Source of the DNA: a virus
Strand: one strand, 5' to 3'
Virus record (IMG/VR): IMGVR_UViG_3300047185_000031
Coordinates: 1 to 44,452 of that record
Length of the DNA: 44,452 nucleotides
The first letter of the stretch is position 1, and each line of letters opens with the position of its first letter. Shown piece after piece: positions 38,824 to 43,469 of this stretch. The notes beneath the pieces were generated by a model. It did no database searches. It was not told where the DNA came from and saw nothing but the letters and a program-made list of their open reading frames with translations. A program made the translations under genes and the position numbers.

Positions 38824-39498
38824 TTATTTAAAATCTTTCGCTCCAACGATCTTCACCTGGTTCGTCCTGGCGACGGCCTCGGCCCGGTGAATCATGGTGA
38901 TGATCTCGCTGATTTTTCCATCGCTGTCAGCGGCGATCCGCTCAATGGCATCGTCCTGATATTTGACATCGGATACTTCGCTCAAAAAATGCTTCACTCC
39001 CTCGAGATCAAGTTTTTCAAATCTCACGATATCTACAAATCTCCGGTAGAGTCTGCGATTCGACATGAGTTTTTTATCGGCCATCTCTTCGCCGATAAAA
39101 ACCATCGGGCAATGGCAGATATCATGGATATCCCGGAGCGTCTCGAGGATCTCGGGTTTATGGGCGAAGCGGTCCACTTCGTCAAAAATAATTGTCCGGG
39201 GTTTTGAAGCAAGGAACTGACTGATGAGATCGAAATTTCTATCCGTTCTATAGGCCGGAGCAGCTCCGAGTTCCGAGACGATCTTTCTCAGGAGCCAGGG
39301 GCCGGTCATGAGCTCAAGGGTGCGAATCATCACCGCTCCGTTTTGGGCGGCGTAATGAATGGCGGCATCGGTCTTACCGAGGCCCGGCTCGCCTACAGTC
39401 AGAGACATTCTCTCGACACCTTTGAGTTTGTGGTTGATATGATCGATTGCCTGATGGAATTTTTTAACCGATTTAGTAATAACGAACTGATTTTTCAT
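38824..39498 (-). CDS. MuB-like AAA+ ATPase, transposition target activator
   Basis: A 224-residue AAA+ ATPase: Walker A GEPGLGKT (36-43) and Walker B IIFDEVD (103-109), with a sensor region FIGEEMADKKL. It is shorter than Mu B (312) and more like the TnsC/IstB-style B proteins of D3112-type phages. The gene overlaps the transposase stop as ATGA. It binds target DNA, delivers it to the transposase and provides target immunity. Confidence 0.92.
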   Translation of the reverse strand: MKNQFVITKSVKKFHQAIDHINHKLKGVERMSLTVGEPGLGKTDAAIHYAAQNGAVMIRTLELMTGPWLLRKIVSELGAAPAYRTDRNFDLISQFLASKPRTIIFDEVDRFAHKPEILETLRDIHDICHCPMVFIGEEMADKKLMSNRRLYRRFVDIVRFEKLDLEGVKHFLSEVSDVKYQDDAIERIAADSDGKISEIITMIHRAEAVARTNQVKIVGAKDFK

Positions 39499-41774
39499 CT
39501 TTCACCCCCTTGTGCCGTATGTTTATAAAGCGAACTTCTCGACATAAAGTCATCGAGCCATGCCCGATCTTCAGCGGTGATCGAGGTCACCAACTGTTTC
39601 ATCAACCAATCGTATTTTTCATAGTCATCATAGAACCAAGGCCTTCCTGGTTCGGAGTTCGGAGTTCGGAGTTCGGAGTTTTCGCTATGCGCTATGCGCT
39701 CTGCGCTCTGCGTGTCATTGTCAACAAACGGCGATATTTTGACGACTTTTGGTTTCTTGACTGCCTCGATCTTTTGGATCGTTTCTGAAATCTCGGTCTT
39801 CTTCGTTTTGCTCCAATCGATCTGGCCGGCTTGCCTCGAATCGAGTAGGTCGCAGAGTTTGCGTGTCGTGTTCTTAACCTTTTTCTTCAGCCGTATGACT
39901 TCTTTTACAGCCTCCATGTCTTTGGGGTTTTCGCTCTCGGAGGCCATTGGATTGACTTTTTCGATAGGATGCGCCGTGCAGAGAAATTCGTTTTTATGGA
40001 AGATGTAGATTTGTGAAAGATCGGAAAGTGAATACCGGATGACAACCTTATCTTTGAGTCCGTAAAGCGCCTCGTCATACCAATGCCATCCAAGCCAGGT
40101 GACTCCGTTTCGGTGGATATATTTGATCTCCCGTTCCATCATTAGATAAGTAAGCTCATTCGGATCGACACCGGGGCCTTTGCCATCATTAAATATATCG
40201 ATAGGCCTGAGACCATCGCGGCCCCTGGACGGTCTCTCTGCGTAGCGGTCGCGCCACGCGCGGATCAGATCGTTGGTCTCTTCGATTGTGGGCACAAACG
40301 GATTGTGGAGAGATTGGGCATATTTTTCGTTTCTCTTCATTCTGGGAGGCTTATCCTCGATGGATGCGCCGGTATAGGATGGGATCAGACGCTCGAGCTG
40401 CTCGTTGAGGATCCCAAATATCCTTTCAATCGGTTTCGCCTGGGCGTTATAGGGTTGGGCGAAGTGATAGTTAATATTGAGGCGGGCGAACATCCCGGGA
40501 AGCTCGGTATCTTCAAGGGTGATATCCTCGGTGAATATTTTTGCACTGAAGGCTTTGCCATTGTCCAAATAAACCCATTTCGGAATTTTACCCAGGGCGA
40601 GAATGGCGTTTCTAAGGGCTGAGGCGACACATTGAATATTCTCCTCGAGCATGAGCTCCCAACCCAGGGGATAGGAGCTTTTCCAATCCCAGAATAGCAC
40701 CAACGCCGGCCGACAGGCCTTGCCGGTGATGGGATTGATGACTTGAAAGTTGAGCCGGTGCCCATCGGCAACCAGACCATCGCCCACCTCGAGTAATCTC
40801 CAGTCGCGCTCGGCATAAGGAGCGACTTTATCATTGAGTGCCTTCTCTCCCTCGCGGCGGAGGACCCAAATATCGTAATGCTCTTTTTTGAATTGATCGA
40901 CGAACCGGCGAAGAGTCGCCGGTGATGACGGAGACTCGATTTTTTTCTTTTGGAGATAACTTTTTGCGAGGGTAATGGCATAGGCGGTTTTTAGGCGGTT
41001 TTGATGAAGGACCAACGTGAGAAGAAGGTTTTTTTCGTGCTCGGTGGTCTTCGAGATCCCCGCGCCTCCGTATTGAGGCACAAGGCCGGCTATACCATCG
41101 ATTTCATAGGCCCTAATCCATTCATAGAGTGTGGATCGGGAAATTCGACGTATATCATTATATATAGTGGGGTGTGAGACCCCCGAATTATAGAGGTCAA
41201 GAAACTGCCGAACGATCTCGGATTTCGGCCGGTGATTGTTTTTGATTTCTTCCTGGAGGGATTGGAGGAGGGCATAGCGGAGATGAGCGATGCGATTGTA
41301 GGGACTGTCCCTATTTACGGACCCGACCACGGGGAGGGTCGTAGAATGGGGACTGTCCCCATCTTTTTGAATTTCCGGCAGATTTGGCGTCTGGTCACTG
41401 ATTACCGATGACTGATCACTGATCACCGGTTCTCCTTTTACGATTGGCGTTACGACCCGGCACCCCGGCTCGCCGCGATGTACACGATATCGGTCTTTAT
41501 TTTTGGCTTTTTTCTGATCACTGATCACTGATGACTGATCACTGATCACTGATAACTGATCACTATCATTTATATATACCTTGAGCACCATCCCTGCTTT
41601 ACCGCCGCCTTTATTGCTTGGTTCAAATTGGCCTTCCAATTTCCCGCGTTCAAACCATTTCTGAATCGCCCTGACCGTGACCCCCAAAGTCCTCGCCGCC
41701 GTCTCGGTGTCCACCAATATTCTCTTAGAGTTGTCATTCTGAGCGGAGCGAAGAATCTCTGTGTCGACTTTCAT
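39495..41774 (-). CDS. MuA-like DDE transposase with several in-frame repeat insertions
   Basis: A 759-residue transposase. The catalytic triad is D337 (VADGH), D404 (YLDNG) and E450 (KPIERIFG); the 67-residue D-D spacing equals that of Mu A. The N-terminal part holds a helix-turn-helix (VDTETAARTLGVTVRAIQKW, in part). It is about 100 residues longer than Mu A (663) because of repeat-encoded segments: residues 5-15 (TEILRSAQNDN), 71-87 and 115-128 (VISDQSSVISDQ), 138-158, and 688-709 (NSELRTPNSE). All keep the frame. It acts on the terminal sites. Confidence 0.94.
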   Translation of the reverse strand: MKVDTEILRSAQNDNSKRILVDTETAARTLGVTVRAIQKWFERGKLEGQFEPSNKGGGKAGMVLKVYINDSDQLSVISDQSSVISDQKKAKNKDRYRVHRGEPGCRVVTPIVKGEPVISDQSSVISDQTPNLPEIQKDGDSPHSTTLPVVGSVNRDSPYNRIAHLRYALLQSLQEEIKNNHRPKSEIVRQFLDLYNSGVSHPTIYNDIRRISRSTLYEWIRAYEIDGIAGLVPQYGGAGISKTTEHEKNLLLTLVLHQNRLKTAYAITLAKSYLQKKKIESPSSPATLRRFVDQFKKEHYDIWVLRREGEKALNDKVAPYAERDWRLLEVGDGLVADGHRLNFQVINPITGKACRPALVLFWDWKSSYPLGWELMLEENIQCVASALRNAILALGKIPKWVYLDNGKAFSAKIFTEDITLEDTELPGMFARLNINYHFAQPYNAQAKPIERIFGILNEQLERLIPSYTGASIEDKPPRMKRNEKYAQSLHNPFVPTIEETNDLIRAWRDRYAERPSRGRDGLRPIDIFNDGKGPGVDPNELTYLMMEREIKYIHRNGVTWLGWHWYDEALYGLKDKVVIRYSLSDLSQIYIFHKNEFLCTAHPIEKVNPMASESENPKDMEAVKEVIRLKKKVKNTTRKLCDLLDSRQAGQIDWSKTKKTEISETIQKIEAVKKPKVVKISPFVDNDTQSAERIAHSENSELRTPNSEPGRPWFYDDYEKYDWLMKQLVTSITAEDRAWLDDFMSRSSLYKHTAQGGER
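39649..39713 (-). repeat. Two adjacent repeats inside the transposase C-terminus
   Basis: GTTCGGAGTTCGGAGTT at 39649-39681 followed by CGCTATGCGCTATGCGCTCT units at 39683-39713. Together they encode ERIAHSENSELRTPNSEP between the catalytic core and the MuB-interacting end. Confidence 0.88.
41300..41361 (-). repeat. GGGACTGTCCC palindromic repeat inside the transposase
   Basis: GGGACTGTCCC occurs near both ends as the same-strand palindromic core, around CCGACCACGGGGAGGGTCG. It encodes residues 138-158 and is related to the element in the protease gene (27481-27535). Confidence 0.85.
41391..41430 (-). repeat. TGATCACTGATC repeat inside the transposase (copy 1)
   Basis: Read in frame as PVISDQSSVISDQ. 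It is identical in type to the intergenic TGATCACT tracts. Confidence 0.88.
41515..41564 (-). repeat. TGATCACTGATC repeat inside the transposase (copy 2)
   Basis: Read in frame as SDQLSVISDQSSVISDQ, in a linker after the N-terminal DNA-binding part. Confidence 0.88.
41731..41761 (-). repeat. TCATTCTGAGCGGAGCGAAG repeat at the transposase N-terminus
   Basis: Encodes EILRSAQNDN. This peptide and its DNA belong to an interspersed repeat that I recall from many bacterial genomes. It lies before the HTH domain. Confidence 0.8.
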
Positions 41775-41776
41775 TT

Positions 41777-41797
41777 AATCCCTCATTCCCTCATCCC
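41777..41797. repeat. TCCCTCATTCCCTCATCCCC tract before the transposase
   Basis: Its minus strand (GGGGATGAGGGAATGAGGGA) provides the GAGGGA ribosome site of the transposase and encodes the end of the upstream gene. Confidence 0.7.
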
Positions 41798-42259
41798 CTG
41801 AAGTTTCGCCTCAACAGCTTTTTCCTCCTCGGTGAGTTTTCTTTTCTCATCCTTGATCCGTCCGAGTTTCATTAAGAGGGCATCCTTGCTCTCAATCACA
41901 TATACCCCGAGGAGATCCGCCAGAATCCGGAAAGGTTCAAGATTCCCCACCACATGACAAAAGGCCGGTAAATAACACGCCGGAAATCTATAGACACCCT
42001 CGCGACTCTCGGCCGTCCACGAATCGATCATCGACTTCGTGATCTCGAAGCCCAGGACCTCCGACATTTTGGCTGCAATTTGGAACCGCGAATGCGGACA
42101 ATCCTTAATGGCCCGGGAAATGGCATCTCGAAGTTGGAGGTCTATATTAAATGTAGAGGAATCGCTTATTTGAGGTCGGAGATCTTTTAAAAGATCGAGT
42201 AGAGAGAGTTGGTTAGGATTGCGATTTTTAATCATAAAATTGCTATTGATTTCGCTCAA
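41783..42259 (-). CDS. Early protein upstream of the transposase, probable DNA-binding
   Basis: A 158-residue protein. AISRAIKDCPHSRFQIAAKM, then SEVLGFEITKSMIDSWTAES and RFPACYLPAFCHVVGN form an HTH-like pattern that I associate with a small conserved protein upstream of MuA in Mu-like phages of diverse bacteria. The start at 42259 is TTG with no ribosome site; an ATG at 42235 (MIKNRNPNQL) is an alternative. Its end nearly touches the transposase. Likely an accessory of early regulation or transposition. Confidence 0.62.
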   Translation of the reverse strand: MSEINSNFMIKNRNPNQLSLLDLLKDLRPQISDSSTFNIDLQLRDAISRAIKDCPHSRFQIAAKMSEVLGFEITKSMIDSWTAESREGVYRFPACYLPAFCHVVGNLEPFRILADLLGVYVIESKDALLMKLGRIKDEKRKLTEEEKAVEAKLQGMRE

Positions 42260-42274
42260 AAAAATTTATATGAT
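42246..42274 (+). promoter_or_regulatory. Candidate plus-strand sigma70 promoter
   Basis: TTGATT at 42246-42251, a 17-base spacer, TATGAT at 42269-42274. Transcription would start near 42281, at the foot of a strong hairpin, and run towards the plus-strand zinc-ribbon gene. The promoter overlaps the 5' end of the gene at 41783-42259 on the other strand. Confidence 0.6.
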
Positions 42275-42277
42275 TTC

Positions 42278-42335
42278 AAAATAAAGAGGCCGCAGATCCT
42301 GACTCCCCTCTCAAGGTTTCGGATCATACGGCCTC
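42278..42335 (-). terminator. Hairpin terminator/attenuator in the early operon
   Basis: On the minus strand, GAGGCCG and GATCC pair with GGATC and CGGCCTC (42335-42286) with short internal loops, followed by TTTATTTT. It lies between the Ner/zinc-ribbon genes and the transposase unit, so it could limit early transcription. The same stem exists in a plus-strand transcript. Confidence 0.65.
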
Positions 42336-42372
42336 CCCAGGGGAACCAGCCCCCTCGTTTTTAAAAATCTCG
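42281..42372 (+). ncRNA. Candidate structured leader or small RNA
   Basis: A plus-strand transcript from the promoter at 42246-42274 would begin at stem GAGGCCG-CA-GATCC / GGATC-ATA-CGGCCTC (42286-42335), then form GGGG-AACCAG-CCCC followed by TCGTTTTT (42341-42362). This hairpin-plus-terminator layout upstream of an AAAGGAGG site resembles a leader with conditional termination, or a short antisense RNA. No known class recognised. Confidence 0.45.
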
Positions 42373-42387
42373 TCAAAGGAGGAACTC

Positions 42388-42648
42388 ATGAGATTCGATC
42401 GATACGTCATATGCTCAAACCCATCGTGTAATTTCAGTGTACAGGCCGTGAGAGAAACAATCGCGGGTTGCCCTCGGTGCGGAAGTGATTTGATCTATGA
42501 ATGCCCTTATTGCCATAATTCCCTTTATTTCAAAAACCAGTCTTTCTGCATCGAAAAAGATTGCAGAAAACCCATTAAGCCCGCGACGGAGGTGGGTCCA
42601 GAAAAGAAACTGCGATCCCGCAAAAAGGGCAGCAAGCCACAGGCTTAG
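42388..42648 (+). CDS. Zinc-ribbon protein encoded against the early operon
   Basis: An 86-residue protein with an excellent ribosome site (AAAGGAGGAACTC). Pairs CSNPSC, CPRC, CPYC and CIEKDC indicate two zinc ribbons in the first 57 residues; the C-terminus is basic (KKLRSRKKGSK). It is the only plus-strand gene between transposase and repressor. Its end overlaps the 3' end of a minus-strand zinc-ribbon gene by 74 bases. It may be a regulator expressed in lysogeny. Confidence 0.75.
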   Translation: MRFDRYVICSNPSCNFSVQAVRETIAGCPRCGSDLIYECPYCHNSLYFKNQSFCIEKDCRKPIKPATEVGPEKKLRSRKKGSKPQA

Positions 42649-42775
42649 GAGAAAACCAGGCATGAAACATCTTTCCACAATTAATACAGGTGGTCATTAA
42701 ACCGATGAGATTCCCAAAACAGTGAGGGCAATGATGACTATCGGAATCAATATGTGCTTCACAAATGGGGCACAT
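42575..42775 (-). CDS. Double zinc-ribbon protein
   Basis: A 66-residue protein with four CxxC pairs: CPIC, CPHC, CINC and CPFC, in the usual order of a double zinc ribbon (MCPICEAHIDSDSHHCPHCF, in part). The start directly abuts the stop of the Ner-like gene. It runs convergently into the plus-strand zinc-ribbon gene. Probably a small regulator or adaptor of early transcription; no specific family. Confidence 0.72.
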   Translation of the reverse strand: MCPICEAHIDSDSHHCPHCFGNLIGLMTTCINCGKMFHAWFSPKPVACCPFCGIAVSFLDPPPSRA

Positions 42776-42976
42776 TTACGCCGCCTTTCTTTGGGCCGGA
42801 AGAAACTCCGAAACGCTCGTGCCGGTCTTCCGGGCAATGTACCGAAGGATTCTCATCGATTTTCCCTTGCGATGCAGCACCAACGAGACCCAGGTCTCGG
42901 TAACACCCAGTTCCCATGCTGTCTGCCGCTGGGTCAAATTATGCAGTCTCATGATTCGCTGAATTTTTTTTGTCAT
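42776..42976 (-). CDS. Ner/Cro-like HTH regulator
   Basis: The start at 42976 (MTKKIQRIMRLHNLTQRQTA) follows AAAAGGCCT; the longer frame to 43141 runs through the control region and repressor and is spurious. The product is 66 residues with a helix-turn-helix (LTQRQTAWELGVTETWVSLV). It is the first gene from the early promoter, as Ner is in Mu, and probably represses early and repressor promoters late in infection. Confidence 0.82.
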   Translation of the reverse strand: MTKKIQRIMRLHNLTQRQTAWELGVTETWVSLVLHRKGKSMRILRYIARKTGTSVSEFLPAQRKAA

Positions 42977-43006: not shown

Positions 43007-43036
43007 AATATAGACTAAAAATAATCTATTTGTCAA
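43007..43036 (-). promoter_or_regulatory. Early promoter (Pe-like)
   Basis: On the minus strand: TTGACA (43036-43031), an 18-base spacer, TATATT (43012-43007). It drives the Ner-like gene and the transposase operon. A repressor-operator-like palindrome lies within the spacer. Confidence 0.75.
43011..43028. promoter_or_regulatory. Operator-like site O1
   Basis: TAGACTAAAAATAATCTA, an imperfect palindrome that covers the early promoter spacer. It shares the core ACTAAAAATA with O2. Confidence 0.65.
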
Positions 43037-43064: not shown

Positions 43065-43469
43065 GTGGAACCTATTGATTTAAAAGAGGATTTAAAAAAG
43101 AAAATTGGAGCCGAAATTAGACGGATTAGAGGGGATCTCACCCTTGAAAAATTCGATAATTTAACCGGTGTCCATAAGGATCAGTTGAGTAGATATGAAA
43201 GGGGAAAAAGCCTTCCCAGGCCGGAGACGTGGAAAAAAATTGTCAAATATGACGCTGATGTCTCTGAGTTTTTGAAAGTCTCTGAGCCACCCCCCCCTTA
43301 TCAAGTTCGCACGGTGGAACATGAAAAACTATTTGACAGTATGGCCGAAATTTTAGAAAGTGGTAATGAGACAATGATCGACGCTCTAAAGGCCAATATT
43401 AAGGCTTTCCTTGAAGCCGTCCGCATGGCCCAAAAGAACGATGAAGACAAATCCAAGGGAGGCGATTGA
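43065..43469 (+). CDS. Phage repressor, XRE-type HTH
   Basis: A 134-residue repressor with an N-terminal XRE helix-turn-helix: GAEIRRIRGDLTLEKFDNLT (in part) then VHKDQLSRYERGKSLP. It is divergent from the Ner-like gene. The start is GTG and lacks a ribosome site, so the message may be leaderless. It probably binds O1 and O2 to block the early promoter and maintain lysogeny. The C-terminal half is helical and may dimerise; no protease-type domain is present, unlike LexA-type repressors. Confidence 0.85.
   Translation: MEPIDLKEDLKKKIGAEIRRIRGDLTLEKFDNLTGVHKDQLSRYERGKSLPRPETWKKIVKYDADVSEFLKVSEPPPPYQVRTVEHEKLFDSMAEILESGNETMIDALKANIKAFLEAVRMAQKNDEDKSKGGD

Follow-up and report, generated by a model that had tools for sequence, protein, structure and literature searches.

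Why does a Mu-like phage carry a promoter that points away from its own transposase operon? In the window, which is the whole stretch of DNA analyzed here (a virus record of 44,452 bases), the initial annotation had described transcription on the plus strand, opposed to the transposase operon, with a promoter, two hairpins, and a zinc-ribbon gene, and had suggested either a leader-controlled gene or a small antisense RNA. Our analysis supports such a unit, with a real coding gene in it. From comparison with relatives, we consider it likely that its promoter is a CII/pRE-like promoter of the repressor operon that overlaps a terminator of the early strand and carries swappable cargo. We favor this reading because of the 17-bp spacing of the promoter, the geometry of an adjacent dyad, the repressor gene downstream, and the pC1 transcript of Fc02.

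On the minus strand of the window, a ner-like HTH gene, a zinc-ribbon gene, and a 150-aa PHROG_2345 regulator gene precede the genes for the Mu-type transposase and an AAA/TniB-like ATPase. The plus strand has the flagged promoter, the hairpins, a second zinc-ribbon gene, and then a repressor-like HTH gene. The features are listed below with the evidence for each in parentheses; relatives are designated by L numbers.

39495-41774, minus: Mu-type transposase gene, in the downstream part of the early operon (Mu-transpos_C, E 2.2e-11)
41783-42235, minus: PHROG_2345 regulator gene, proposed CII-like activator (PHROG_2345, E 1e-31; HTH fold in the model)
42219-42245, plus: dyad TTGCGA (42219-42224) / TTGCTA (42240-42245), candidate activator site (conserved geometry and covarying half-sites in 43 non-redundant relatives)
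42246-42274, plus: TTGATT-N17-TATGAT, the proposed lysogeny promoter of the repressor operon, expected to start transcription at about 42281 (relatives share its place and its 17-bp spacing)
42277-42285, minus: U-rich tract of the putative early-strand terminator, overlapping the plus-strand transcription start (sequence, alignment, and spacing)
42286-42335, minus: hairpin 1, a putative intrinsic terminator or pause site for the early transcript (the minus-strand fold is the more stable one in seven phages; six retain all 13 outer pairs)
42339-42362, plus: hairpin 2 with its T-tract, resembling a weak terminator of the plus strand (−7.0 kcal/mol; counterparts in L005, L007, L009, and L038)
42375-42382, plus: ribosome binding site AAAGGAGG (sequence)
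42388-42648, plus: cargo gene for an 86-aa double zinc-ribbon protein (L005 homolog 54% identical and in the same place; dN/dS 0.20, from one sequence pair with synonymous sites near saturation)
42575-42775, minus: early-operon gene for a 66-aa protein with a double zinc ribbon (Pfam DZR at E 7.7e-6, narrowly missing the cut-off; dN/dS 0.33, likewise from one pair near synonymous saturation)
42776-42976, minus: ner/cro-like HTH gene (weak HTH matches and position)
43007-43036, minus: predicted early promoter TTGACA-N18-TATATT (11 of 12 consensus matches)
43065-43469, plus: HTH gene resembling a repressor, which the plus promoter is proposed to serve (Pfam HTH_3, E 6.3e-9; almost all relatives have it on the strand of the promoter)

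Several kinds of repeats were also observed. Dispersed filler repeats of the ACTGATCACTGATG type lie in frame within the transposase gene (window 41400-41560), and other repeats are inserted between promoter and hairpin in L004 (66-98) and L005 (2165-2215). Beyond the repressor gene are non-coding tandem repeats that differ per phage (window 44083-44135, L005 360-500, L009 10585-10740); they may be arrays bound by the transposase close to the end of the phage.

Promoter and dyad beside the regulator gene

The promoter was found where it had been annotated, with the −35 element TTGATT at 42246-42251 and the −10 element TATGAT at 42269-42274. In a single genome it is not above chance, with 8 sigma-70-like sites per 3 kb compared to 5.5 ± 2.3 in shuffles; its significance comes only from comparison with relatives. 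Relatives of the regulator were gathered from viral contigs and from bacterial genomes, the latter being deltaproteobacterial, betaproteobacterial, and other metagenome-assembled genomes whose host assignments hinge on binning. In the 100 nt around the regulator start, the mean promoter z score over 55 loci was +2.0 antisense vs −0.3 sense, and the −35 element falls at one identical position in 25 of these loci. Among 44 non-redundant loci with CATTG at the regulator start codon, the −10 score plotted against spacing shows one distinct peak, at 17 bp on the antisense strand; since CATTG was the inclusion criterion for these loci, the −10 element is the sole independent test there. Both in the window and in relatives, the promoter overlaps or adjoins the start of the PHROG_2345 gene and points away from it. 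D3112 and DMS3 (L068 and L069; 1390-1430) encode the same regulator family (orf3) and have no CATTGAC promoter at the start codon, a point against reading this element as a lysogeny promoter.

Comparison also brings out an inverted repeat beside the −35 element. The half-sites in the window are 21 bp apart from center to center, the right half abutting the −35, and this copy is imperfect, matching at only 4 of 6 positions. We aligned the loci on the −35 and scanned for dyads with position and spacing varied. The best inverted repeat directly abuts the −35 with 21 bp spacing and scores 3.33/6, compared to 1.42 ± 0.34 over all settings; because the repeat had been spotted by eye beforehand, the scan serves as a check and not as a blind discovery. 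In the 43 non-redundant loci, the dyad score is 3.74/6 at 20-21 bp vs about 2.0 at other spacings. Swapping halves between loci gave 3.14 ± 0.12, and none of 2000 such shuffles, which do not fully remove relatedness, reached 3.74. Half-sites differ between lineages, for example TGTCTA/TAGACA (L029 and L059), TGTCCG/CGGACA (L111), and TGACGA/TAGTCA (L036). They lie partly within coding sequence, so codon conservation contributes.

Most likely, the PHROG_2345 product binds this dyad upstream of the −35 and activates the plus promoter. We propose an activator function because of the position of the gene and the dyad; the structural resemblance is generic for HTH proteins. The AlphaFold model of the regulator has a mean pLDDT of 84.6, and its HTH core resembles XRE-type domains. 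Phage 186 regulator chains, which we take to be CII, came near the top for this model (Foldseek rank 2, E 0.34; VIA-align Z 8.2), a likeness no better than that to unrelated HTH proteins. A search of solved structures by sequence gave no match to the regulator. The L058 regulator matches PHROG_101 (CII-like) at E 0.001, whereas the window protein does not. The near-consensus plus promoter may also be independent of the activator.

Hairpin 1 and the early strand

The long hairpin annotated at the predicted start is present, beginning about 5 nt past it, with arms GAGGCCGCAGATC and GATCATACGGCCTC at 42286-42335. Its stability is above chance (z −5.1 for minus-strand RNA and −4.0 for plus-strand RNA), with 0 of 500 shuffles as stable on either strand. 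That the minus strand uses it as a terminator agrees with a comparison of seven phages (the window, L004, L005, L007, L009, L038, and L080), in which the advantage of the minus-strand fold over the plus-strand fold ranges from 6 to 14 kcal/mol (mean 10.2, vs 2.7 ± 2.9 in shuffles), and with the U-rich sequence past the hairpin on that strand. Where plus-strand RNA has C.A or A.C mismatches, minus-strand RNA has G.U pairs. The outer 13 pairs of the stem form in all 6 aligned sequences; covariation is thin, because changes on both sides occur in two pairs and both come from L038 alone. An early-operon terminator, in the position of lambda tR1, is probably the selected function of hairpin 1.

The hairpin begins 5-8 nt past the plus start in 5 of the 7 phages, which places the expected point of minus-strand release on the plus promoter. 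In L004 and L005, 35-48 nt separate the −10 element and the hairpin, which loosens the geometry for occlusion. The window clade and L080 have a stable hairpin with a U-rich tract in the interval that separates the ner-like gene from the regulator gene; most other relatives lack it.

We also considered whether terminators on both strands might be the general rule. With a loose cut-off, early-strand sites were found in 19 of 54 loci vs 7 in one shuffle set, and lysogenic-strand sites in 17 of 54 vs 11 in shuffles. Our terminator claim is therefore limited to strong hairpins. The hairpin as a host-wide repeat was likewise rejected: a covariance model (R1) run on 12 relative-carrying bacterial genomes returned weak matches only, the best at 28.9 bits. 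A zinc-ribbon protein as partner of the hairpin was set aside, L007 and L009 having the hairpin and neither zinc-ribbon gene. A loop-to-downstream pairing UCCCCU/AGGGGA, considered as a plus-strand antiterminator, was dropped; visual inspection showed it in L005, L009, and the window and not in L007.

Cargo genes and alternative readings

The strong ribosome binding site and the zinc-ribbon gene behind the hairpins were both recovered as annotated. The open reading frame starts with ATG at 42388 and has 86 codons with eight cysteines, and its comparison with L005 marks it as a real gene; the minus-strand zinc-ribbon gene retains eight of eight cysteines in L005. The two genes overlap tail to tail by 74 nt (42388-42775), and both appear to be under purifying selection vs L005. 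The gene at the cargo place is a zinc ribbon in the window and L005 and an unrelated 78-aa gene in L009; L007 has none, and L003 and L075 lack both the cargo genes and the hairpin. As judged from these sequences, the zinc-ribbon gene is exchangeable cargo. L002 was rejected as a relative of the plus-strand zinc ribbon, its match lying antisense within a structural-gene region and being taken as spurious.

The annotated second GC hairpin is also present but weak (−7.0 kcal/mol). Its stem (42339-42355) is followed by CGTTTTT, placing the T-tract two bases past the stem, and it is not above chance, with 6 terminator-like sites vs 3.8 ± 2.1 in shuffles. It could stop the plus transcript before the repressor. 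An unlikely reading built on this is a short antisense RNA, in which a plus transcript of about 80 nt runs to hairpin 2 and acts on the polycistronic early mRNA, by pairing or by interference, ahead of the regulator and transposase genes. Such an RNA would fit the weak terminator-like hairpins past hairpin 1 in the window, L005, L007, L009, and L038, the lack in L007 of any gene separating the hairpins from the ner-like gene, and a promoter that is conserved while its cargo is not. However, at −5 to −9 kcal/mol the stems of hairpin 2 are weak, the T-tract of the window is offset, hairpin 1 favors the other strand, and most relatives have the promoter and no such hairpin, with the promoter facing the ner-like or repressor gene. 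For a small antisense RNA regulating the transposase, as first suggested, we found no evidence; the predicted transcript heads toward the repressor and away from the transposase.

Less probable still is a moron cassette, an autonomous insertion of promoter, gene, and terminator unrelated to repressor control. Gene and hairpin do come and go as a block, as in L003 and L075, but the promoter is kept where the gene is absent, G+C is near that of the neighboring early genes, and a simple scan found no plus-strand terminator-like site past the gene, where other terminator types are possible. Finally, that hairpins 1 and 2 form an attenuator or riboswitch-like cis-regulatory leader dedicated to the zinc-ribbon gene is very improbable: the order of leader, terminator-like hairpin, and strong ribosome site and the near-identical outer stem of hairpin 1 in five phages would suit it, but hairpin 1 favors the minus strand, where the plus-strand mismatches pair, the genes behind it are unrelated or absent, and an Rfam search of the window at the gathering score gave 0 matches.

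A proposed lysogeny switch and its known counterparts

The repressor-operon reading also draws on gene order. In nearly all loci in which both genes were found, a repressor-like gene lies on the promoter's strand, and several loci have no ner-like gene between promoter and repressor. We observed a changed gene order in L100, L101, L106, L108, L109, and L111, where the ner-like gene lies past the regulator, so that the antisense promoter faces the repressor directly.

In the proposed mechanism, the plus promoter sits at the 5′ end of the PHROG_2345 gene, whose product would activate it through the dyad in the manner of CII. The plus transcript would take in the cargo gene, cross the ner-like gene antisense, and arrive at the repressor. 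Hairpin 1 would stop or pause the opposing early transcript and, going by the geometry, a polymerase halted on the plus promoter could occlude it. How general this is remains evenly balanced in our judgment: many PHROG_2345 transposable phages, in several bacterial phyla, may share a CII-type circuit, comprising an activator gene whose 5′ end holds both its own operator and the repressor promoter in antisense orientation, while the operators diverge in specificity from lineage to lineage, and in the window clade an early-strand terminator over the promoter start may couple the opposing transcripts. We found no paper on an establishment promoter in transposable phages in the open-licence literature. 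If the proposal is correct, a wide range of transposable phages would choose between lysis and lysogeny by the logic of lambda and 186, and PHROG_2345, a family of unknown target, would gain a testable function and a binding site. The stretch just past the promoter would become a predictable place for lysogen-expressed genes such as the Fc02 exclusion gene olg1, and a terminator over an opposing promoter would offer a natural case for studies of transcriptional interference.

The layout resembles that of lambda, in which the first part of the activator gene contains pRE, a promoter that reads cro in antisense and leads on to cI, and the terminator tR1 lies between cro and cII; polymerase pausing at tR1 occludes pRE (PMC5869508, PMC6593788). 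Lambda differs in not being transposable, and its establishment transcript, unlike the one predicted for the window, has no cargo gene between pRE and cI. In phage 186, CII binds an inverted repeat with halves two helical turns apart, at −38 and −58 of pE, the right half beside the −35 as in the window, and an HTH regulator gene likewise adjoins a promoter that is convergent with the lytic promoter (PMC6593788). However, the basal activity of pE is negligible vs the near-consensus promoter of the window, the half-sites of 186 are unlike those of the window, which vary between lineages, and homology of the regulators is not established.

The remaining counterpart is the lysogenic operon read from pC1 in Fc02, a Pseudomonas phage, and its equivalent in B3. 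The B3 regulator at the corresponding place, ORF15, is annotated as CII-like and has no established homology to PHROG_2345; the cargo gene olg1, which serves superinfection exclusion, bears no relation to the zinc ribbon, and a tR1-like hairpin at the promoter start is not described in PMC9936078. As in the window, these are transposable phages with a distal repressor-strand promoter beside a regulator gene (CII-like in B3) and a cargo ORF that overlaps an early gene antisense (PMC9936078). Strand-specific RNA-seq of the Fc02 lysogen revealed a transcript, ascribed to the distal promoter pC1, that runs through olg1 into the repressor (PMC9936078). By analogy, and with an Fc02 regulator that differs from that of the window, this transcript provides the closest experimental support for the repressor-operon promoter proposed here.
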